From: Thermococcus sp. JdFR-02
GTDB lineage: Archaea; Methanobacteriota_B; Thermococci; Thermococcales; Thermococcaceae
Assembly: GCA_002009975.1 (NCBI GenBank)
Contig: MTLP01000042.1
Coordinates: forward strand, 1 to 64,000
DNA: 64,000 nt
Direction: 5' to 3'
Position 1 is the stretch's first letter, and the number at the start of each line of letters is the position of its first letter. Of the stretch, positions 15,783 to 29,157 are shown piece by piece. The position numbers were made by a program, and so were the translations under genes. The notes below the pieces were generated by a model. The model did not search any database, was not told the DNA's origin, and was given only the letters and a program-made list of their open reading frames with translations.

Positions 15783-18203
15783 ATGAAGGGAAAATCAGCC
15801 ATAGTAATAATACTTTTCGTTATGCTTTTAGCACCAATGCTACCACAAGTAACTGCAAAACAGGAACAAATTCAAAACAGAGTTCAAAGAAACGAAAAAA
15901 TAAATCCATTCTTTGCACCCTTTTTAGAGGTATTTAAAAATATGACAGATGAGGAAAAGAAAGCTCTCCTTAACGCACTTGAGTTAATGATTAATGAGAT
16001 GATTAATGGAACAATAGTAGTCTCAGAAAACATGAAAATTATGAACATTACGTGGACTAATGAAGGCTTAAAATTCGAGCTATGGTATTTTAACAGTACT
16101 GATCCAATAAAGATTAGACATTATTTATGGAACAACCCAGAAAAAGCTCTTCATACTATAGAAAGGCTAAAAGCAGATGACAATATTACAGATTCTGAAA
16201 TTAAAGAACTTTCTGAAGACCTGAAGGTTGTTCCTCTATCAATACCCTACAGCGTTGTGATAAAGGACGTTGATTACCTAACAAATGATGGAAATGGCGA
16301 GTATGTAATCCTCTACAATCCGAGTAGCTCCTCAGCAAATATTCCAGGTTGGTACATAATGGATAGCTTTGCCTACAATAACAACGAATGCTGGAACTAT
16401 GATGGAACACCAAAAGATTCATGTAAATATTATGGTAGGGAACACATAATCAAGGTTTACGGTACAATTGTCCCGTTTGGAACATATATTGTAAAAGTTG
16501 CTTCAAGCCCGGAGGATGCTATCCTCAATAATGATGGAGATACTGTGTATTTAGTTGATTCACTGGGAAACGTTATTAGCACATACCATTATTCAGCTTC
16601 TCCTGAGATAACTGTAGAGGATATCCATTACTATCCAAGCAAACCTTCTCCCGGAACTCCAGTGGATTTCACAATAAAGCTCGATAACAGAGGAGCATTG
16701 GGAGGTGCCGGAACCCTTCAGCTTGTTATAGATGGAGAAATACTCAAAAGTGAGAGTGTTTATGTGGAAAAATACTCAATCAAGTATTTCCGCTTCTATG
16801 ATGCATGGACTGCAGAGCCTGGCACCCATGTTGTAGTTGCAAAGTTTATTCCTTCTTATTCAGGAGGGAAAGAGTCAACGGAAATTACTTGGATTTCTGT
16901 ACCCACTGTTAGCATAACCAGTGTAAATTATCCCTCCCCAGTTATTGAAGATAGGGATATTAAATTTGATGTTTTAGTCAATAATCCTGCATCTGAAAAA
17001 GTGGATGTTACCCTAAAACTGTTGGTTGATAATGAACAAAAATGGAGCTTTTCGGGATATGTATTACCTGAGCAAAGCTATCAATTCTATCTAATTTGGA
17101 AGGATCCTACACCTGAAACTCACAATGTCACTATTGAGCTCTGGGAAGATAGTGAACTCAGAGATACATGGAAGAAGACAATCTACGTGAAACCTAACTT
17201 ACCTCCAAAAATAACTAACATAACAATTCCTGAAGAAGCATATTCCGGGTATAGATTTGATGGGACAGTAACGGTGTACGACGAGGAGAGTGATGAGGTA
17301 TATGTCAGAGTCTACGTTAATGATGAGTATAAATTCACAATAGGCCCAATTACCTCTGAAGAAACTGCAAGCTACTATTATTATCCGGTGATAAACAACT
17401 GTACCAAGGAGCTTAGATTCATGTTTGTCCCAGTGGATGAGAGGGGTAACGTTGGGACACCCGAAGAGAGGACTGTCCTTGTTAAACTGGACACTGACTT
17501 TGATGGCTGGTGTGATATTGAAGAAATAGAAAAGTACAAGACAGACCCATATAAATGGGACACTGATGGAGATGGTATAAAAGATTCAAAAGATGTGGAC
17601 CCACTAACAAGGAACTTAACATTAACGGTGTATGTCTTTCGTGCAAGAGTTCTCGATCCAGTTGATGAATGGCTTTCCGCTGATTATCAGAAAGCTGATA
17701 TGACCTTGGAGATTGGAGCTAATCTCGGACATGGTAACATTGTATGGCAGAGTTTTACAATATCAGATAATCAGGATGATGCTGAGAAATCAATAATACT
17801 AACTAACGACACGCTTGTAAATATGGAGCTTCAGCAGATAGCCAAGTTTACAGTTGACATCCCAGAGTACTTTGAGTTTACATGGATTTACTTCAAGCTC
17901 TTTGACAGAGATACTCTGTCGTCTTGGGATATGCTCGATGTATCTCCAGAAAGCGGGACAGATGAGGAAGGCAAGATGGCTAAAGTTATGTTCTCTGTAA
18001 AGAGTGGTACGTGGGGCTTCCACGATTATCCAAATGATCACAAAGTTTACTTTGGCTATGGTCATCTGAGCGGTTGCGGTGATGGCTCCTGTGGTGATTT
18101 AGACTCAAGCACTGACATTGAACCATTCGTCAAGTACTACGATGAGCTTGAAGCCATGGGTTATGATTTAAGCATTGTTAACATCACAGATGCTAAAGGG
18201 TAG
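15783..18203 (+). CDS. Large secreted multidomain protein, N-terminal part, ending at an in-frame TAG
   Basis: The 806-residue product has a signal peptide (residues 1-26) and a helical segment to about residue 150. A lamin-tail-like domain follows (about 157-272, VVIKDVDYLTNDGNGEYVILYNP), then two CARDB-type adhesion domains (about 278-475) and a third beta domain. Asp-rich calcium-binding repeats come next (about 569-609, DTDGDGIKDSKDVDPL), and then a C2-like domain to about 730. The frame ends at TAG 18201-18203 but continues open directly after it into the protease domain at 18204-19658. The natural protein is therefore probably one polypeptide of about 1291 residues, interrupted here by a nonsense codon or an error. 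It would be exported and surface-attached or released, presenting a C-terminal metalloprotease. Confidence 0.75.
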   Translation: MKGKSAIVIILFVMLLAPMLPQVTAKQEQIQNRVQRNEKINPFFAPFLEVFKNMTDEEKKALLNALELMINEMINGTIVVSENMKIMNITWTNEGLKFELWYFNSTDPIKIRHYLWNNPEKALHTIERLKADDNITDSEIKELSEDLKVVPLSIPYSVVIKDVDYLTNDGNGEYVILYNPSSSSANIPGWYIMDSFAYNNNECWNYDGTPKDSCKYYGREHIIKVYGTIVPFGTYIVKVASSPEDAILNNDGDTVYLVDSLGNVISTYHYSASPEITVEDIHYYPSKPSPGTPVDFTIKLDNRGALGGAGTLQLVIDGEILKSESVYVEKYSIKYFRFYDAWTAEPGTHVVVAKFIPSYSGGKESTEITWISVPTVSITSVNYPSPVIEDRDIKFDVLVNNPASEKVDVTLKLLVDNEQKWSFSGYVLPEQSYQFYLIWKDPTPETHNVTIELWEDSELRDTWKKTIYVKPNLPPKITNITIPEEAYSGYRFDGTVTVYDEESDEVYVRVYVNDEYKFTIGPITSEETASYYYYPVINNCTKELRFMFVPVDERGNVGTPEERTVLVKLDTDFDGWCDIEEIEKYKTDPYKWDTDGDGIKDSKDVDPLTRNLTLTVYVFRARVLDPVDEWLSADYQKADMTLEIGANLGHGNIVWQSFTISDNQDDAEKSIILTNDTLVNMELQQIAKFTVDIPEYFEFTWIYFKLFDRDTLSSWDMLDVSPESGTDEEGKMAKVMFSVKSGTWGFHDYPNDHKVYFGYGHLSGCGDGSCGDLDSSTDIEPFVKYYDELEAMGYDLSIVNITDAKG

Positions 18204-19658
18204 GATGGGATTGAGAGTGTAGAGGTCAAAGATTATCAAAAAGGGAAGCTTTATCAGTATTCCAAGCCTGAAGAGGCAGTTCTATTCACCCTAGCCTTGC
18301 CAAACGGGACTGAGAGGAAGGTCTTAATAATCAATAAGAGAAACGCCAAAGTTCAGGTGCAGAACCTTCCAAGTGAAGACGTTAAACTATTGTCCACGGA
18401 TAGTGAAGCGAGTAATGGAAATATTACAGTTAAACAAAATGCAACAGTAGGAAAACGGATAAGATATGAAGCAGTCTTTATCTTCAGAGAACAGAATGAG
18501 AATGTAAAGGAGCAAGAAGTCCAAGCTTTAAGCAACAGTGAAACTGAGAACACGTCTACTGCGTTGACTTTTGATGCCTTAGGGACCTCAGAAGATGGTG
18601 ATGAAGATGACGCCGAGATATGGTTCATCATCAAGCTGAACGATGCTGATGGGGATGGAATACCATTCTACAAAGAGTTAGAGCTTAACAAAGAGCTTGA
18701 GAAGAGAGGCTACAGTAGAAGATTTGACCCGCGTAAGAACGATGCCTACGGCGACTATGACGGCGATGGAGTTCCTAATAGCGTGGAGCTGTTTATTGGG
18801 AAGGATCCGGCGAAGAGGGATATACTAGGGATAGAACTAAATATTTCAGTAGAGTGGACTATGAGCGAAGATGACAAGAAAAACTTGATCTACAGCATCA
18901 GGAAGGCCAGTGACTTCATCTACGACTACACGGACGGCTACGCCATGATAACGAAGATAAACGTGTGGGATGGGAAGAGAAATATCAAACGGGCAGATGT
19001 CTGGGTGAATGAAACGTTCCTAGAAGTCAAATTCATAGGGGACAATAAAAAGTGGCCTCAAGCAACGATTGGTGGCTACTGGACTGGAGGGAAACTCGTA
19101 ATGCCTTATAGGTTCTTACGGCCTACTCCTCCCGTTGGGATTGCAGAGCTGGGGGATGTGCAGTGGGCCCGGGCCCTCGGTCATGAGCTCGGTCACTATG
19201 TCTTCTGGCTCGGGGACGAGTATGAAGACTGGAAAGGAAGAACGTACTACTGGAATTATGGGCTAGATGGTCCCGATGTTGATACCCATGCTCCACACTC
19301 AGTCATGCATCACGAGTGGAAGTGGAGCGAGTTGAGCACCCCGAGAGATTACGAAAACTTCAAACAGTACTTAACAAATAAATACGGTGACTGGAAGCCA
19401 TACATCACGGACCAATGGGGTAACGTAACAAAGAACCCTATGACTGACTATCCAATTTGGCACTGCTCGGCATGGGAAGCACTGTTTAAGTCCTTAACGG
19501 GCCATGGCAGGCCTGAATGGACCAAAGGACCATATACCAACATTTGCATGGATTTGAATTTTGATGGAACATGTGACAGAACATTTCCACAAGAGTATAT
19601 CCCCAAAACTGGCCCGTACACTGGTGTCGGCTACTTCATGGGGGTGAACCTAAAATGA
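18204..19658 (+). pseudogene. C-terminal M64-like metalloprotease domain of the large secreted protein (after the in-frame stop)
   Basis: This is in the same frame as 15783-18203 with no start signal at the junction; the first later ATG/TTG (TTG 18297) has no ribosome site. It contains another calcium repeat (YDGDGVPNSVELFIGKDPAK, about 18755-18815) and the catalytic motif HELGHYVFWLGDEY (HELGH at 19182-19196). This HExGHxxxxLGDEY form is close to IgA-peptidase-like M64 enzymes: two His and a later Asp/Glu bind zinc and the first Glu is catalytic. The end has the hallmark PKTGPYTGVGYF followed by a GGGGGTGA sequence that serves as ribosome site of the next gene. It would be active if the TAG were read through or absent; as written it is not translated from the main start. 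Confidence 0.7.
18784..18808 (+). repeat. 25-base exact repeat, copy 1 (protease 'ELFIGKDP' hinge)
   Basis: Starting TGGAGCTGTTTATTGG and ending AAGGATCC, this block is identical to 21068-21092 although the flanks differ in many third positions. It encodes ELFIGKDP, just before the protease domain, and is a plausible crossover site for exchanging protease tips. Confidence 0.75.
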
Positions 19659-20602
19659 GACGGGTTTTCATTTCCATTTTCCTTTCGCTCGTGCTCTTAA
19701 CAGGCTTCCTTGCATACAACGCTTACACTTACCACGAGCTCAGCTCAGCGGAAGGAGCTTACAAGCTTGCTGTAATCCCAGAGAAAGAGAAACTCATTGC
19801 TGTCTACCACGGTGACAACCTCTGGCAGTTCGCGACCTACGATGAGGAAACGAACACGCTAAAGCTTTACAATTTAAAACAGTCCTCAATCCTCGATCTC
19901 AAGGACAGGAGTGTCGAAAAGATCAAAGCGATGCTCAACTACTCTCCTCTCACACTCGACCCAAAACTCCTCAAAGAGTACACGCCTCATACCCGTGCTC
20001 TTCTCTTTAAACCCCTCGGCTGGAAATACGATAATGAGATCAGCGGCTCGTACTGGAGAAACTTGAGTGAGGTGATAAAGCCCGGGGAAGAGTACTACAA
20101 GATTTATGGCGTGGGAACGAGCAGGAAACTCTGGATAAAGCGGAAGGAAGTCTGTGAAAAAGCCAGCATCTTCGCCCATGATTACGTTTGCTATGGGTAT
20201 ATTGGAGTGAGTGGTATTCTCGTGATCCCAGGGTACGAGGGTGAAAGAATGCTCTGGGTGATAGAGAAGCCCCATGATAACCAAACCGAGATGATCGCTT
20301 ACTACCCGGGCATCACACTGAAGAAAACCAAGACACCAGAAGAAAACCAAAAACCACGCAACTACACTGGAGAGGACGGTAAAATAATCCTTGAAATGCT
20401 AAACAAGTTGAAGGGAAACAAAACGGAATACGTGCAGATTGTCCTGTATGAAAAGCTAAAGAGACTCCCCGGATACCGCGGACTTGGGTGGTCTCTCGGG
20501 TCAGGAGGCTACTGCCACGTTGAAGCATGTTGCAAGGATTTAGCACAAATAAACATTTCAAAACCCTGGTGCGTTTCCCGCTGGAGGCTTCGAGATGACT
20601 AA
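19655..20602 (+). CDS. Membrane-anchored extracellular protein coupled to the metalloprotease (possible immunity/inhibitor)
   Basis: The ATG overlaps the protease stop (ATGA) and its ribosome site GGGGGTGA lies inside the protease 3' end, so the two are tightly coupled. The 315-residue product has one N-terminal membrane helix (about residues 4-23, VFISIFLSLVLLTGFLAY) and an extracellular remainder with several Cys near residues 161-175 and 289-304. No family was recognised. Membrane-anchored small proteins right after a secreted toxin-like enzyme are typical of immunity proteins, but a chaperone, inhibitor or substrate role is equally open. Base composition looks richer in G+C than the neighbouring chromosome. 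Confidence 0.65.
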   Translation: MRRVFISIFLSLVLLTGFLAYNAYTYHELSSAEGAYKLAVIPEKEKLIAVYHGDNLWQFATYDEETNTLKLYNLKQSSILDLKDRSVEKIKAMLNYSPLTLDPKLLKEYTPHTRALLFKPLGWKYDNEISGSYWRNLSEVIKPGEEYYKIYGVGTSRKLWIKRKEVCEKASIFAHDYVCYGYIGVSGILVIPGYEGERMLWVIEKPHDNQTEMIAYYPGITLKKTKTPEENQKPRNYTGEDGKIILEMLNKLKGNKTEYVQIVLYEKLKRLPGYRGLGWSLGSGGYCHVEACCKDLAQINISKPWCVSRWRLRDD

Positions 20603-20640
20603 GAACTGTAATCAAGCATGACTGGAGAGGTGAGCTGGAG

Positions 20641-21118
20641 ATGAAAAAAGCTTTGGTAATGTTCAGCATTTTCCTCTTCCTTTTGCTCGTTTCCTACTAC
20701 TATCTACCAGCCTACAGCATGACTGAACTCTATCAAAAAAATTCCAGAAAAAGTTCGGGAAGATTCACAACTCATAGCCGCTTATTACTCCCCGAAAACA
20801 GGCTTTGGAGGCTTAGAGAAGAACACAATAACCTGCAAGACTCAATTCAACTACTTGATAATGAAGACAAACCCAGAAAAAATCAAAGAACTCACAAACT
20901 GCGATAACTGTCAAATCCTCCTGTACTTAGACAAAATCTACCAAAACAGCGAAATTGAAACCCTATATCTCCCAATCGAACAAGTACTCAAAAACAAACA
21001 AAACACAATCTATATTGAACTCACCTTTATCAAAGATTGCGAACTCTCATCAGAGCCAAAACAGTGTTGGAGCTGTTTATTGGGAAGGATCCTGCAAAGC
21101 CAGATGTTCTCGGAATAA
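20641..21118 (+). pseudogene. Frameshifted, 3'-truncated membrane-anchored partner protein
   Basis: ATG 20641 follows GAGGTGAGCTGGAG. The first 33 residues give a signal/anchor (MKKALVMFSIFLFLLLVSYYY) and YSMTELYQK, then a run of seven A (20734-20741 region) puts the reading out of frame. With one A fewer, the frame would continue as KIPEKVREDSQLIAAYYSPK and stay open for about 95 further residues, through a Cys-rich stretch (NCDNC, QCWSC). It then runs out of frame into the protease hinge at 21068. The gene thus looks like a partner protein with a homopolymer frameshift whose 3' end was replaced by the next cassette. The beginning is loosely similar to the partner at 19655 (LIAVY versus LIAAY). 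Slippage on A7 could restore expression. Confidence 0.65.
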
Positions 21119-22023
21119 AACTGACGGTTGCCGTCGGATTTAATGCCAGCCAGGATTATCTCACAAAGCTCGTCAAGGGCTTCCAGAGGGCGAGTCAGGT
21201 GGTTTACGATTACACGGATGGGTATGCGATGATAACGGAAATCAGCATAAAGAACAACGTGCCCGAGGGGAGCGAGGAATGGGAGGAATCGATGATAGTA
21301 ATCCACAGCAATGAATCCAAAAAATTATACACAGATACTCCAATAATTCCCCACAATCCGGAGGAACCAGCGTCGAGCTGGGTGATTCCTATACCTGGGT
21401 ATTGGCTATGGTTTAAAACAGAAGAACAAAACAATTCAAAGCCCCACGTCCATCTTTATAAGATATACAGGGGAACATATCCAGATTCTAAAGTATACTA
21501 TGGAGGCATTGCTCATGAGTTAGGACATTTTGTCTTTGCATTGGGTGACGAATACATCACAAAGAACATATACAACATTAAAGCCGGCGAATATAAACAC
21601 CTGTACTATGACACTATAATATCGCTTTGTGGATTCAAGAACTTTACAAAGCTACCCACTATTATGGAAGCAGGAGATAAAATGACAGAATTGAGTACTC
21701 CCCAAGATTACATAGAATTCAACAACCAACTCATTAATTATTATCAACAGATTAGGGAGGTCTTGGTTCCTCTGGGATGGAACATAACAAAATGGGACGA
21801 CTTAATAACTAGTCACTTGGGCGATAATCGATACTTCTATAATGGAGCACTTCATGAGAATTTATCCGGATGGGAAGTGTTAGTGGCAATTATGAATTAT
21901 ACCGAATTTAACTATGTCAACACCACGAGGATACAGATTGACATCGATGCAAAAAAGCATATCCCCTTCGTAGGCCCATACACAGGCGTCGGATATTATC
22001 TTATAACTAGACTACAGGGGTGA
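21037..22023 (+). CDS. 5'-truncated M64-like metalloprotease tip (second cassette)
   Basis: The open frame of 328 codons enters the protease domain at the shared hinge LELFIGKDPAK (21068-21092). It then follows the first copy: YDYTDGYAMITEI, HELGHFVFALGDEY (HELGH at 21514-21528), STPQDYIEF, and the end GPYTGVGYY. All catalytic residues are kept. It has no signal peptide, no calcium repeats upstream, and only TTG 21037 or GTG 21064 as starts, with no ribosome site. It is therefore a displaced tip that would work only after recombination onto a complete N-terminal part. Its divergence from copy 1 suggests a different specificity rather than a recent duplication. Confidence 0.65.
   Translation: MRTLIRAKTVLELFIGKDPAKPDVLGIKLTVAVGFNASQDYLTKLVKGFQRASQVVYDYTDGYAMITEISIKNNVPEGSEEWEESMIVIHSNESKKLYTDTPIIPHNPEEPASSWVIPIPGYWLWFKTEEQNNSKPHVHLYKIYRGTYPDSKVYYGGIAHELGHFVFALGDEYITKNIYNIKAGEYKHLYYDTIISLCGFKNFTKLPTIMEAGDKMTELSTPQDYIEFNNQLINYYQQIREVLVPLGWNITKWDDLITSHLGDNRYFYNGALHENLSGWEVLVAIMNYTEFNYVNTTRIQIDIDAKKHIPFVGPYTGVGYYLITRLQG
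21068..21092 (+). repeat. 25-base exact repeat, copy 2 (cassette junction)
   Basis: Identical to 18784-18808. On its left is the broken partner gene 20641, in a different frame; on its right is the second protease tip. It therefore coincides exactly with the point where two unrelated sequences join. Confidence 0.75.
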
Positions 22024-22028
22024 CCACA

Positions 22029-22952
22029 ATGCCAAAAAGGTCACTAATACAATATTTGTTCTTTTTAGTTTTTGTAATTTTAGCACTAATGCTTATAGTT
22101 TCACCCCAAGATAACAGGCCCTCAGGTGTTCCCCAAGAACTTTCTCCCTATGATGCATACTTATTATTTGCAAAGCCATGCGCAGAGAACTGGAGTGCTG
22201 ATGCCGTTCTAATCGAAGCGGAATTTATAGAGCCTCCCGCGGGGAAATGGGAACCTACTGATGGACAGCTCTACAAGCCACCATTAGAGATAGTTCAGGA
22301 ATCCAAATTCAACAACGGCCGTTCACACCTCCATGTATTCACATTCTATTTCCCCTCAAAAAAGGAGCTCCTGCTGTTAACTGTTTACGTCACAAACACG
22401 ACTAAAAAATGGGATGTGCTGGAAATATCCAAGCAGACTCCCATGGATTATTCTTCATTCAAAGTCCTTCCAGAGAGGCTCCAGGGAGTTCCCAACACTA
22501 CTCATGCAATCTTGTTCCTTGGGGAATGGCATGAAGTTGCCGATATCGGCTCTCCCAAACTAGCGGAGAACCTTACAGTTATGGAGGTCACAGTTTGGGA
22601 TACGAAGCACACTTCTATTGATGAGGGAATCCTGATTCCGATAAGAGCGGTTTTGTATAGACTTCCCAACGGCACGATTATAGTCAACTATCCAGGAGGG
22701 GTAAAGGTATCAACCAAGGCGGGTATTCCTCCCGGATTAACAACATTCAAGCTCAATAGTAGCGTTATTGCCACGTTTGAAAAGATAAGAGAAGGCTGGC
22801 ACCGCAGTGGAATAGAAAAATACGTGATAACATCAGAAACCATCAAGGGTTTCAGGCTCACAAGACTGAGTGGGCCGGGGCTCAATATCAAGGAGTGTAC
22901 GGTTAGAATCGGTAATCTATCAACAGCCAAATGTTATGGAACTCAGAGTTAA
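22029..22952 (+). CDS. Membrane-anchored extracellular partner protein of the second cassette
   Basis: The 307-residue product has an N-terminal membrane helix (LIQYLFFLVFVILALMLIV) and an extracellular beta-rich domain. GGGGTGA, which includes the protease stop, lies five bases before ATG 22029; a GTG at 22020 is the alternative. The motif QTPMDYSSFKVLPERL (about residues 139-154) recurs in the next protein as QPTPFDYSKFAITPKML, so the two are diverged paralogs. Function unknown; immunity or inhibitor of the coupled protease is the working inference. Confidence 0.65.
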   Translation: MPKRSLIQYLFFLVFVILALMLIVSPQDNRPSGVPQELSPYDAYLLFAKPCAENWSADAVLIEAEFIEPPAGKWEPTDGQLYKPPLEIVQESKFNNGRSHLHVFTFYFPSKKELLLLTVYVTNTTKKWDVLEISKQTPMDYSSFKVLPERLQGVPNTTHAILFLGEWHEVADIGSPKLAENLTVMEVTVWDTKHTSIDEGILIPIRAVLYRLPNGTIIVNYPGGVKVSTKAGIPPGLTTFKLNSSVIATFEKIREGWHRSGIEKYVITSETIKGFRLTRLSGPGLNIKECTVRIGNLSTAKCYGTQS

Positions 22953-22977
22953 TGTCAAGGTGGAGGTGAAACAACAC

Positions 22978-24000
22978 ATGATTCCCAAGAGTCCAAAAAT
23001 CGCCCTTCTCTTCTTTATTATCACCGTAAGTCTTGTCTATTTCAAAATGCATTCACAAGAAAACCAAGAAACTCCCTTTGAACTTACAGCATTTGAGGTG
23101 TATACCAACATTATACAAGATGAAATAAAACGTTGGGACAAGCACGCTGTAATTATCGCAGTTCAAGGAATTGACTACAAATACCCCGTGAGGATTCCCC
23201 AAGAGACTATAAGCAACGAATTCATAACCAGCTCAAAAATTCCCACTAAAACCCTTCTTGACTACAAAGCACCATCTTGGATTTTTGTTCTATACTCAAA
23301 ACAGAGAAAAGAACTTATGTGGATTGAGGCGGCTATCTTAAAGGATCGCGCTAATAAAGAAGCGTGGAAAATTGTCAAAATAATCCAGCCAACTCCATTT
23401 GATTACTCAAAATTCGCAATTACACCTAAAATGCTGGAAAGAAATACAAGCTGGAAAATTTTGAAATCCTCCAATGGAGTTTCATACTTTGTCTCAAATC
23501 TTAAGCTACCAAATATAACGTCCAACACGACAATGATAGCAAAAGAGATTAGGGTGCTTTATTCACAGTTTCTGATTATCAATGTGCCAGTTCATGACTC
23601 GTATTTGAGTTCAAAATTCAAATTCGAACCTATTACAGGAGTCGTAGTTCTTCCGGACAAGAAGAGTTATGGCGTGGTAGTTCAAATAATTCCATGTATA
23701 CAATACCTGGAACTTTCAAGCCCGAAATTAGTTCTTCTGCTCTATAATGAAACTCACGATAGAATACTTGCAGAATATGCCAGAGCCGTATTGGAGGGGA
23801 CTGTACTAAAAACTGAGAGCAAACGAACTTCTCTTACCATTACAAGCCCTGTGCCTAGTAATGTGCATCAAGCCGAAACCATGATTAAAGAAGATTACAT
23901 AGTGTCCCACTACTGGATTGACATCATAAGGGAAGGGTTCTGTGAGGGTTCTGAGGATTACAAATGCAGGGACATTAACTACGAGTGGGTGAGGGATTAG
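22978..24000 (+). CDS. Second membrane-anchored extracellular partner protein, paralog of the preceding gene
   Basis: The 340-residue protein begins with a membrane anchor (ALLFFIITVSLVYF). It shares with its neighbour the order W-x-(K/A)-(H/D)-AV(I/L)I near the start, an ELxxIxAxxLK-type strand, and PFDYSKFAITPKML near residue 140. GGAGGTGA lies nine bases before ATG 22978; a longer frame upstream overlaps the previous gene and is rejected. The downstream stop abuts a short protease remnant. It may have belonged to a cassette whose protease tip was lost. Confidence 0.65.
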   Translation: MIPKSPKIALLFFIITVSLVYFKMHSQENQETPFELTAFEVYTNIIQDEIKRWDKHAVIIAVQGIDYKYPVRIPQETISNEFITSSKIPTKTLLDYKAPSWIFVLYSKQRKELMWIEAAILKDRANKEAWKIVKIIQPTPFDYSKFAITPKMLERNTSWKILKSSNGVSYFVSNLKLPNITSNTTMIAKEIRVLYSQFLIINVPVHDSYLSSKFKFEPITGVVVLPDKKSYGVVVQIIPCIQYLELSSPKLVLLLYNETHDRILAEYARAVLEGTVLKTESKRTSLTITSPVPSNVHQAETMIKEDYIVSHYWIDIIREGFCEGSEDYKCRDINYEWVRD

Positions 24001-24001
24001 A

Positions 24002-24175
24002 ATGCTTACAAGATGGCATACGTTAAGCTACAACGGTGTTTACAACGTGGATGCGGGCATCTACCTTGACCTGGACTTTGATGGTGTAGCAGACTATGAA
24101 CTCCCCAAGGGATACATACCCAAAGTCGGCCCATACATAGGAGTCGGCCAATACATGATCATCCAATGGGGGTGA
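24002..24175 (+). pseudogene. 3' remnant of a metalloprotease tip (third cassette)
   Basis: An open stretch of 57 codons ends LDLDFDGVADYELPKGYIPK then VGPYIGVGQYM. It aligns with the last 35 residues of the protease at 19658 (MDLNFDGTCDRTFPQEYIPK, TGPYTGVGYFM). The catalytic part is absent. The final GGGGGTGA again supplies the ribosome site of the next gene, so the protease-partner junction is preserved although the enzyme is gone. Confidence 0.7.
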
Positions 24176-24180
24176 AGAAT

Positions 24181-24894
24181 GTGAGAATTGTCTCTTTCTC
24201 GGTCTCTATTCTTATCCTTCTCCTTTTAACATCACTCCCCGTTAATGCGGTGAGTATTTGGGATGGTCTCGTCGACAGGCCCATTTACTACATTAACATT
24301 GAAGGTTACAGTCTTACAGGAGCTCCACCATGGAACCCATTTAACGATTCCTCAATAACACGGATCAACATCGGATATTCATACAACGAAACACACACAT
24401 TCAATAAATACTATGAGAACGGAATATGGAAAGAAGGATTCTACCTCAAACACCAAAACCCCAAACCATTCACCCTCTCCGACTGGAACCTTTCAAAAGT
24501 TCTTGAAGAGTACCAGTGGGGCGTTGAGAAATACCTGCCCAACATTACCGGGAAATTTGCGGCTGGAGAATGGAAAAAGGGCTACTGGAACAGCTCAATA
24601 GCCCGGTGGAATGTAATAATCAACGCACACCAACTCAAAATAACCCTCAACACCATGGCCAGTGAAGGCTCAGGAGAATTCGATGAATACATTACCTTCG
24701 AATGCTGGCGGAATGAAAGTAATGTAACGTGCAAATGGAACAAACCAGTCTTCAAACTCTACCCCAGCCGGCCACCAATAGGAAAAGACACAACAACAAG
24801 CACGACAAAAGAGGAAAACAAAACCTGCGGGCCAGCTTTGCTGGTTGGATTAGCATTAGTTCCTATATGGGTTAGGAGGTGGCATAAGAGGTGA
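24181..24894 (+). CDS. Secreted protein with CGP-CTERM anchor (cassette partner)
   Basis: Translation probably begins at GTG 24181, five bases after GGGGTGA. The 237-residue product has a signal peptide ending VNAVS, a mature domain starting SIWDGL, and a Thr-rich stalk. At the C-terminus is CGPALLVGLALVPIWVRRWHKR: the CGP-CTERM pattern of Cys-Gly-Pro, a hydrophobic stretch and a basic end, which is known in Thermococcaceae as a surface-anchoring signal processed by an archaeosortase-like system. The domain is paralogous to 25140-25757 (FNDSSIT-x-(I/V), YSYN(E/Q)TH, DW(N/D)L). Function unknown. Confidence 0.7.
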   Translation: MRIVSFSVSILILLLLTSLPVNAVSIWDGLVDRPIYYINIEGYSLTGAPPWNPFNDSSITRINIGYSYNETHTFNKYYENGIWKEGFYLKHQNPKPFTLSDWNLSKVLEEYQWGVEKYLPNITGKFAAGEWKKGYWNSSIARWNVIINAHQLKITLNTMASEGSGEFDEYITFECWRNESNVTCKWNKPVFKLYPSRPPIGKDTTTSTTKEENKTCGPALLVGLALVPIWVRRWHKR

Positions 24895-25115
24895 AGAATG
24901 GATTATCTTTGGCTTTGCTCTTCCTCCTTTTCCTTCCTTTGGCTTCAGCTGGAAAGGTTAACCTGTTCAACCACCTGCCGGGCAATGAGACGGTGAAGTT
25001 GGTAACTTTCGAATGCCACTCAAACTGCACGCCCCAAAAATGGTTCATGGTCGATAACTTAACCATCATAAAACCCCACAACGGGACCGTATACTGGGAC
25101 TGGATATTATCTTAG
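24891..25115 (+). CDS. Small secreted protein of unknown function
   Basis: The frame starts at GTG 24891, overlapping the preceding TGA, and encodes 74 residues with a clear signal peptide (MKNGLSLALLFLLFLPLASA). The mature part of about 54 residues has two Cys (ECHSNC) and no anchor. An ATG at 24898 in another frame gives a poor protein. It may be complete or the truncated start of a longer partner protein. Confidence 0.5.
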   Translation: MKNGLSLALLFLLFLPLASAGKVNLFNHLPGNETVKLVTFECHSNCTPQKWFMVDNLTIIKPHNGTVYWDWILS

Positions 25116-25139
25116 AGTTCTATATCAGGAGGGATCACA

Positions 25140-25757
25140 ATGAAAAGATTGTTCATAACAATTTTTCTTTTTTCCTTGGTATTAACCCCAGCTACTCACT
25201 TCCTAAAGGCAGTTAGTCTATGGGACGTGCTAGAAGAAAATCAAAGCATTAAGTATATCCTCATTGATGGAGCTGGCCCAAATATCCCAACTAATCTATT
25301 CAATGATTCTAGCATTACGAAAGTGAAAGTAATATATTCATACAACCAAACTCATGATATCCTTGTAGAGTACACAAAAAATAGAACAACCAAAAGAATG
25401 ATTCCTACAAAGAACATCAGCCCCTTTAGGATTTCAGACTGGGATTTAGACGCATTTCTGGAAAAATACCATGAACACATCAAGATATACGATAACGCTC
25501 CCATCAAGAAATGGACTCTTGAAATTACAAATTTCGACATTGGTGTAACAGTGTTCATGGATGATGGAGTTTACAGTGAGTTTGACTGCTACGGACCAGA
25601 AAACCTTTCATGTTATTCCCAATTCCACTCCCCCAGGAAATACACACCAAACAACACGACAACACCCATCACAACAAAAAAGAACAAGAAAATCTGCGGG
25701 CCGGCTTTGTTGGTTGGGTTAGTTTTGATTCCTGCATTAACAAGAAGGAGGAAATGA
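25140..25757 (+). CDS. Secreted protein with CGP-CTERM anchor, paralog of 24181
   Basis: The 205-residue product has a signal peptide (LFITIFLFSLVLTPATHFLKA) and a SLWDVL start. Internal similarity to the protein at 24181 includes LFNDSSITKVKVIYSYNQTH and FRISDWDLDAFLEKY. A Thr-rich stalk leads to CGPALLVGLVLIPALTRRRK, a CGP-CTERM signal. AGGAGGGATCACA precedes the ATG. Its stop overlaps the start of the next protease remnant. Confidence 0.7.
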   Translation: MKRLFITIFLFSLVLTPATHFLKAVSLWDVLEENQSIKYILIDGAGPNIPTNLFNDSSITKVKVIYSYNQTHDILVEYTKNRTTKRMIPTKNISPFRISDWDLDAFLEKYHEHIKIYDNAPIKKWTLEITNFDIGVTVFMDDGVYSEFDCYGPENLSCYSQFHSPRKYTPNNTTTPITTKKNKKICGPALLVGLVLIPALTRRRK

Positions 25758-25897
25758 GGTGGAGCAGAAAACAGCTAGAAGTTCCAATCAGTCATACTCC
25801 AAAGGTTGGCCCATACACAGGAATCGGCTACTACATGACAGTGAAGATTAACGTTAAAAGACTTACAGAATATAACATGTACCTTTTGTTAAAGTGA
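25754..25897 (+). pseudogene. 3' remnant of a metalloprotease tip (fourth cassette)
   Basis: The 47-codon frame overlaps the preceding stop by ATGA and contains PKVGPYTGIGYYM, the conserved protease end, followed by an unrelated basic tail. The catalytic region is absent. It marks the right edge of the array; ordinary chromosomal genes begin at 26021. Confidence 0.6.
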
Positions 25898-27543: not shown

Positions 27544-28076
27544 CCCTGTTTCTCTAACAATAGCTCAAGATAAGATTTTCTTTCAAATTTCTTTACTCCC
27601 AAACTTTTCAAAATGTTTTTAAGTTTCTTAACTTCCTTTTCAATGCTTTTCTCATCCCTTACAAGCTTTTCAATTTCAATGAACTTACCAAGTCCTTCAA
27701 CCTCATCAAGAGATATAGTAACTCCTTTTTCAGCATAGTACTTTTCTCTAATTTTTATAACTGTGAGAACGTCCCTAAACCCTAAAGATCTCAACAAGTC
27801 TATGTAAGCATCTATATCACTTATAACAACCTCTATTTCTTTTCTCGTCTTTGATTCATTGTCTACTTTGGGACCTTTATAAGTCAAAAAACTCTCAAAA
27901 TGACCATTAAAACGCTTTATCCTAATCCTTAAGGCTTCATCTGTTTTGGAGAAATCTCTACACGGATGTTGGAAATATATGTCCTCATGCATCTCTTTTC
28001 TCATGAATTTAAACTTCTCCCTAACCTTCTCAAATATCTCCTCATCGGCATATCCTTTTAGCTCGACTTCAATCAT
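27540..28076 (-). CDS. CYTH-domain protein (class IV adenylate cyclase/ThTPase-like)
   Basis: The 178-residue protein starts with EVELKGY, the ExExK signature, and has the tunnel-lining basic residues of the fold (ALRIRIKRF, LTYKGPK, RKEIE, EVEGLGKFIEIE). CYTH enzymes hydrolyse triphosphates or make cAMP; archaeal CyaB-like activities vary. Its ATG overlaps the archaemetzincin stop by ATGA, so it is the third gene of a HepT-like, archaemetzincin, CYTH operon. Confidence 0.88.
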   Translation of the reverse strand: MIEVELKGYADEEIFEKVREKFKFMRKEMHEDIYFQHPCRDFSKTDEALRIRIKRFNGHFESFLTYKGPKVDNESKTRKEIEVVISDIDAYIDLLRSLGFRDVLTVIKIREKYYAEKGVTISLDEVEGLGKFIEIEKLVRDEKSIEKEVKKLKNILKSLGVKKFERKSYLELLLEKQG

Positions 28077-28729
28077 TTAGCCCACCCCAACTTTTGCTCC
28101 AGCTCCTTCTCACATCTCTCACAATAATTCTTCCCTTTTAAATCGGTATCAGCAATGCTGTTCGAGAAGTGCATGACGCATTTTATATCTTTGCAGTGCT
28201 CAAGCCCAAAAACATGTCCCAACTCATGCATAGCCTCTTTTATAGCCCTCTCCTTCAAAAGCTCGTCATCTTCATCATTCCCATAAAATTCAGGCTTTAA
28301 ACGATGTAGTGAAATTATTGCAGAACCAAGATAAGGATTTGCTAAGCCAAAGATAAAATTAAGTCCACTTTCATATAAATCAACATCAGTAACTCCCAGT
28401 ACAGCCTCAACTTTTAAATTCACTCTAATTGTTGCTAAGCGGTATAAAAATACTCTTCCAAGAAATTGCCCTCTAAATTCATTGTAAGCTTCAAGAAAGG
28501 GTCTTATGCTTATTTTTGGAATGATCTTTGTTGAAAAGTTAAATTTAGAATAAAAATCCTCAATATGTGCTCCAATAGCCTTCAATACCTCATACTCAAC
28601 CGATTTTGCCACTATTGGAATTATCACAATTTTCCGTGGTCTTTTCTCTTTTATTGTGGCATTCTCAGAAGCTAGAGCGGTTGCGATGCTTTTTCCACTC
28701 TTTTTTACCAGACTCTCAGCTGGAACCAT
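28073..28729 (-). CDS. amzA: Archaemetzincin (zinc metalloprotease)
   Basis: The 218-residue protein has the motif HELGHVFGLEHC, then CVMHFS and a CERC pair. That is the archaemetzincin pattern HExxHxxGxxHC-x4-CxM-x17-CxxC, with one catalytic zinc and one structural zinc. The stretch of about 30 residues before RKIVIIPI is unusual for the family. The ATG at 28729 shares a base with the upstream TGA; an internal start near IIPI cannot be excluded. Physiological substrates are unknown. Confidence 0.9.
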   Translation of the reverse strand: MVPAESLVKKSGKSIATALASENATIKEKRPRKIVIIPIVAKSVEYEVLKAIGAHIEDFYSKFNFSTKIIPKISIRPFLEAYNEFRGQFLGRVFLYRLATIRVNLKVEAVLGVTDVDLYESGLNFIFGLANPYLGSAIISLHRLKPEFYGNDEDDELLKERAIKEAMHELGHVFGLEHCKDIKCVMHFSNSIADTDLKGKNYCERCEKELEQKLGWAK

Positions 28730-29157
28730 CACCCTCCCTCTAACAGCTTCTCGCCAAAATTTAAAAATCGCCCAATTTGCTCCAAATATTCTTGAAAGTT
28801 TTTAAAGGCAATTTCATCACTAATTAAGTCATAATCGTATATCAAAACATCTCTAAGTTTGTTTAAGAACTCCAAATCTCCTTTGAGCTTTTCATCTATG
28901 AGTTTTACATTGTAAAGATTTTCAATTGTTTCCTTGTAGCTCACACTTATACCTAAATCTAAGTCAGAATTAATTAGTGAACATATGTCAAGAATGTTTT
29001 GAATTGCAAACTCTAACTGTTTGTAAATTCCATCCTTTGCAATTCCGAGAGATTTAAACTCTTCAAGACTCTCAGGAAGATTGTTTTTAATAGCTTCCAC
29101 ACTTTCTTTGATGTTATTAATTCTAAGCTGTATTTCGCCACTACTCAATTTTTCCAT
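28729..29157 (-). CDS. HepT-like (DUF86) protein lacking the catalytic histidine
   Basis: The 142-residue helical protein ends with [19 protein letters not shown]. This matches the HepT toxin pattern R-x4-H-x-Y except that the His is replaced by Tyr. Known HepT proteins pair with an MntA nucleotidyltransferase antitoxin, which is absent here. ATG 29157 follows TTGGTGTATATTA; the longer frame has no homologous start. It is probably an inactive or repurposed relative, first in an operon with archaemetzincin. Confidence 0.7.

Follow-up and report, generated by a model that had tools for sequence, protein, structure and literature searches.

Archaeal polymorphic toxins are mostly predictions, and antagonism between archaea is, to our knowledge, barely known. 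Among the described systems that the locus studied here resembles are the bacterial polymorphic toxins of the CDI/Rhs type (Zhang et al. 2012, PMC3482391; PMC3150448), in which a conserved secreted backbone carries a C-terminal tip that is swapped together with the next gene, and in which orphan tips and orphan partner genes lie downstream, as they do in the archaeal module. The module differs from them in using one hypervariable zinc-protease fold, with partners that belong to two new families and are predicted to lie outside the membrane.

Among archaeal systems, VARTIG (Makarova et al. 2021, PMC8416519) comes closest in style. It is likewise a system of the Thermococcales that begins with a large secreted protein with a hypervariable C-terminus, also contains a variable set of small secreted or membrane genes, and is also exchanged between species. 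The VARTIG tips described there consist of Ig domains with a D[ND]NxxxG[GD] end, whereas the tips of the module are metalloproteases ending in GPYTGVGY; in addition, a pairing of tip and partner is seen in the module, and none is reported for VARTIG in the parts of the article examined. Membership of VARTIG was rejected, the C-terminal D[ND]NxxxG[GD] motif being found in 0 of the 458 ORFs of the loci. A further likeness is to the orphan immunity arrays of type VI systems (PMC10470768, PMC12247911, PMC10539506), in which, according to the abstracts, immunity-like genes retained without effectors match the effectors of other strains, as appears to be the case here. These arrays belong to another secretion system and another domain of life, and no sequence relation to the module was found.

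Comparing the loci, we consider it likely that the module is an archaeal polymorphic effector-immunity system with one diversified protease fold and with immunity located outside the membrane. A more specific proposal, to which we give slightly better than even chances, is that of a self-contained archaeal kin discrimination, in which one extracellular protease fold would be diversified in specificity rather than in toxin type and would be neutralised outside the membrane by two new inhibitor families, kept as banks with about a dozen members at most. With the reservation that a 2019 survey of archaeal polymorphic toxins may mention these genes, the module seems to be covered by no described archaeal family.

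The array in the window

The window, that is, the whole 64-kb stretch of DNA analysed, opens contig 1 of JdFR-02, a 2.36-Mb Thermococcaceae genome that is the sole representative of its genus in the genome set. Table 1 lists the features of the array. Across most of the tip-partner region the G+C content is raised, to 0.41-0.48 from about 0.36-0.40, which fits a foreign origin.

Table 1. Tip and partner genes of the array, with matches to profiles built from tips or partners
Feature	Coordinates	Strand	Profile match	Remarks
Backbone of secreted protease	15783..18203	+		Signal peptide, LTD domain, Ig-like and TSP3-like regions; ends at in-frame TAG
Backbone end and tip 1	18204..19658	+	18819-19652, E 2e-104	Continues frame of 15783..18203; core 18819-19655; HELGHYVFWLGDEY; ends GPYTGVGYFMGVNLK
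Partner A1, first partner of tip 1	19655..20602	+	E 4.6e-69	N-terminal membrane anchor
Broken partner A gene	20641..21060	+	20816-21046, E 3e-14	Frame broken; joined directly to tip 2
Orphan tip 2	21067..22023	+	21103-22014, E 2e-91	Core 21103-22020; HELGHFVFALGDEY; without signal peptide or backbone
Partner A2, first partner of tip 2	22020..22952	+		Partner A family
Partner A3, tipless array member	22918..24000	+	22993-23946, E 5e-36	
B-type tip remnant	24002..24175	+	24002-24172, E 1e-10	DAGIYLDLDFDG...GPYIGVG
Partner B1	24166..24894	+	E 4e-100	Secreted, CGP-CTERM anchored; TIGR04288 22.4 bits (cut-off 21)
Partner B gene, N-terminal fragment	24891..25115	+	24909-25112, E 3e-17	
Partner B2	25140..25757	+	E 6e-60	CGP-CTERM anchored; TIGR04288 26.5 bits
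Last tip remnant	25724..25897	+	25724-25849, E 4e-7	GPYTGIGYYM

The sequence-only reading of this DNA had described the first gene as a complete-looking surface protein with a C-terminal protease. The protease tip is indeed present, and is of the A type on the tip tree, but the ORF (15783-19658), which is one frame, is cut once, by a single TAG at 18201-18203. Backbone relatives in other Thermococcaceae are 41-48% identical, and since all nine relatives that cover this stretch have a tryptophan codon at the site, the copy is probably broken, an assembly error at this base being the alternative. Reading of the TAG as a read-through amber codon was not supported, as the relatives have an ordinary sense codon there. 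With its main protease interrupted, the locus may now mainly carry partners; the effector may be dead in the JdFR-02 genome, its partners persisting. A signal peptide (judged by hydropathy) and an LTD domain (Pfam E 2.7e-11) were all that was recognised ahead of the tip. No domain for contact delivery or toxin release was recognised, which may count against an effector-immunity system.

The start of partner A1 overlaps the stop of tip 1 (ATGA), the usual arrangement of a tip and a family A partner. A second protease tip lacking signal peptide and N-terminal domains had been proposed as well and was confirmed, its homology beginning at 21067, immediately 3' of the broken partner A gene. The profile matches also bear out the two short 3' remnants with the GPY(T/I)G(V/I)G block. 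The small secreted or membrane-anchored proteins following the tips had been thought to be different from one another: the genes are present as described, but they are not unrelated, all of them falling into family A or family B. About 2 kb beyond the array, at 28073-28732, lies a gene for an M54 peptidase (archaemetzincin family), an HExxH protein unrelated to the tips.

Tip sequence, family and distribution

The tip is a hypervariable zinc-protease domain (HExGH...DEY) that stands on a conserved secreted backbone and closes with an invariant GPYTGVGY; the 522 kb of loci contain 45 copies of GPYTGVG, compared with 0 in shuffles. The final 15 residues are nearly fixed, and the blocks ahead of HExxH and behind DEY are hypervariable. 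The invariant residues are H122, E123, H126, Y135 and M163. HExxH is retained in all tips that span the active site, as is DEY, except in one genome (G059), where it reads GEDY. Unrelated toxin folds on one backbone were thus not found: in classical polymorphic toxin systems the toxin domains are of mixed, unrelated kinds, whereas the archaeal tips form one alignable family, a difference that counts against reading the module as effectors with immunity.

The label "M64-like", given to the protease from the beginning, could be kept in part. Peptidase family M64 (the IgA protease family) has in common with the tips a motif of the type HExGHxxxxLxDEY, and HExxH, DEY and a Met-containing segment together make a fair case. 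The profile scores, on the other hand, are weak. The best PDB profile match of the tip is the M64 IgA protease 9ekk (E 0.034); Pfam M64 against 27 tips gave a best E of 0.005, under the family cut-off, and a genome search with PF09471 retrieved no tip. The tip is M64-like, though not classed in M64.

Some tips appear to be composite. In two genomes (loci L050 of G038 and L055 of G068), the tips have a near-identical central block around HExxH and different sequence ahead of it, which suggests mosaic recombination inside tips. At L046 (G042 C3, 8054-8446), a gene that begins with the N-terminus of a partner A runs on in the same frame into the GPYTGVG end of a tip. An in-frame fusion of the same two elements with a similar junction is found at L070 (G056 C16, 2600-2944, reverse complement), and this junction, similar in two genomes, is a recombination footprint.

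Tips were found in 21 of the 94 Thermococcaceae genomes (about a fifth), in three of six genera, and none was found outside the family among 115 genomes searched across the phylum. Partner A is present in 19 of the 94 genomes; full-length or near-full matches to partner B (E<1e-26) occur in 17, weaker ones spanning mainly the anchor tail. The backbone-tip gene, which has a long form (about 1300 aa) and a short form (about 850-910 aa), stands first in the locus and is followed by 1 to at least 12 partners. One chromosomal insertion site is empty in three genomes (G022, G013, G063) and full in seven (G044, G025, G014, G038, G061, G059, G058); G017 has partner B genes at this site, and G039 has a decayed one. 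In G032, a complete genome without a tip, the site holds partners alone, and the A partner there and the first partner behind the G014 tip are 90% identical. Carriage of the module by viruses or plasmids was rejected, as the viral contigs searched yielded no relatives of the tip, and the plasmids no relatives of the tip or of partner A. A role in anti-phage defence was also rejected, PADLOC giving no match.

Exchange of the tip with its first partner

As in polymorphic toxins, a conserved N-terminal part meets a variable C-terminal domain at a sharp boundary, a co-varying partner gene lies directly downstream, and displaced orphan tips and orphan partner genes occur. When loci with nearly the same backbone are compared by sliding identity, identity drops sharply where the tip starts and is regained at the GPYTGVG end. 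For example, G044 and G025 are 89% identical in the backbone, 48% in the tip and 27% in the partner, and the corresponding values for G038 and G059 are 85%, 36% and 24%. Aligning the N-terminal part and the tip separately, as had been suggested, therefore gave the expected result, i.e., backbones 85-89% identical with tips 36-48% identical. Conversely, in G024 and G001b, which belong to different genera, the tips are 98% and the partners 95% identical. The pair G019/G033a is imperfect (tip 44%, partner 80%) and counts against effector and immunity being matched.

The pairing was assessed with 30 tip-partner pairs (19 with family A and 11 with family B). On the tip tree, the partner family switches once, compared with a mean of 9.2 for shuffled assignments (0 of 500); on the backbone tree it changes at least four times, which is not clearly fewer than in shuffles. 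In Mantel tests, partner distances follow those of the tips (r=0.65 for A, n=19; r=0.91 for B, n=11, a value that includes near-copies; p=2e-4 each) and not those of the backbones (r=0.08 for A and -0.01 for B). Without near-copies, the correlation persists in family A (r 0.46-0.57, p<=6e-4), and family B is reduced to n=4, too few for a correlation. As a control for linkage, we used 12 loci with two A partners: the tip correlates with the first partner (r=0.68, p=2e-4) and not with the second (r=-0.004, p=0.47). Since only the first of the two partners follows the tip, the exchanged unit is the tip core plus the first partner. Note that linkage could explain the joint transfer; however, the strict match of partner family and tip type makes linkage alone insufficient. 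The initial proposals that partners pair with tips, and that a tip and its cognate partner are exchanged together, are both supported by these results.

Short remnants that have the GPYTGVG end alone number more than 20 in the loci, and nearly all of them lie directly 5' of a partner gene. The likeness to displaced 3' cassettes of CDI/Rhs loci, also pointed out earlier, is strengthened by these remnants, by the partner arrays and by the insertion site that holds partners only.

Partner families and tipless banks

Family A has an N-terminal membrane anchor in 63 of 68 members and a beta-rich ectodomain, and family B has a signal sequence and a CGP-CTERM anchor in 29 of 31. By this topology, judged from hydropathy, both families are predicted to sit outside, on the membrane surface at which a secreted protease would be active. 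Partner A1 was modelled with AlphaFold2 (pLDDT 84, pTM 0.84) and partner B1 with pLDDT 86; partner A gave no meaningful PDB match (best E 5e-3, TM <=0.2), and neither did partner B. Searches of Pfam and PDB with both families gave nothing meaningful beyond the anchor tail of B, and no close fold. This lack of resemblance to known inhibitors or solved folds counts against an immunity function. A profile comparison of A with B gave a weak signal of 29.6%, which was 2.4% with the ectodomains alone.

Among about 99 near-complete partners, 71 are not behind a complete tip. In at least six cases, such a tipless partner is 80-91% identical to a partner that is linked to a tip in another species: G017, of another genus, against partner A2 of the window (91%), G001a against G030 (87%), G038 against G068b (85%), G033a against G058 (84%), G019 against G025 (83%) and G061 against G038 (80%). 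Across 12 tipless partner pairs dN/dS is 0.17-0.38; the tipless partners are under purifying selection.

These data bear directly on whether the region simply arose when an ordinary secreted protease was tandemly duplicated along with an adjacent gene family, is now decaying, and shows pairing through linkage only. Truncated tips, pseudogenes and remnants are common, and the main gene of this genome contains a stop codon, all of which would agree with such decay. Against it are the selection on tipless partners, the exchange between genera, the end of the pairing at the first gene, and the association of partner family with tip rather than backbone. Uniform decay, which the sequence-only reading had named among the outcomes that would count against it, is thus not what we found, and we rejected this very improbable explanation on the dN/dS and exchange data.

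Two other explanations concern the function of the partners. They might be helpers in folding, anchoring or latency (a propeptide in trans), the pair feeding on environmental protein and varying with the prey proteins, with no antagonism involved. Thermococcaceae are peptide feeders, and the overlap of tip stop and partner start, together with the tight co-evolution, would also suit a chaperone or anchor. Helpers would be expected to decay once they have no protease, but the tipless partners are intact, under purifying selection and banked in arrays of up to about 12 copies, and G032 retains partners with no tip; we regard this explanation as unlikely. Alternatively, the partners may be surface-displayed recognition proteins, or substrates cut by the cognate tip, in a device for self/non-self recognition or surface variation like that proposed for VARTIG rather than a weapon. 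VARTIG (PMC8416519) occurs in the same clade with a similarly hypervariable C-terminus and variable downstream genes, and both partner families are predicted to be exposed at the surface. A bank of substrates without proteases, however, has no obvious use, and the tip is tracked by the first partner only, so that we give this possibility little chance. Owing to the tipless banks, immunity fits better than either helpers or substrates.

The effector-immunity interpretation would work as follows. The large secreted protein bears the hypervariable zinc-protease tip, which would cleave proteins on the surface of neighbouring cells. The gene immediately following would encode the cognate partner, which would block its own tip on the outer face of the producer's membrane. 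Tip core and first partner move between species as a single cassette; displaced cassettes would be eroded starting with the tip, so that short GPYTGVG footprints stay behind, and their partners would be retained as a bank against the proteases of other strains. Harm by proteolysis, neutralisation by the partner and competition between strains are the inferred elements of this scheme. With about 20 genomes, 30 tip-partner pairs, about 120 partner genes and clear natural swaps, the idea of effector and antidote can be tested now in Thermococcus. If it is true, the module would provide two probably heat-stable families of protease inhibitors without known relatives, and a weapon that acts at the cell surface through proteolysis.

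Apart from the loci described above, G019 has extra tipless partner A arrays at L103 (C1, 72-86 kb) and L104 (C1, 1823-1837 kb), one of which begins right after a lone GPYTGVG remnant.
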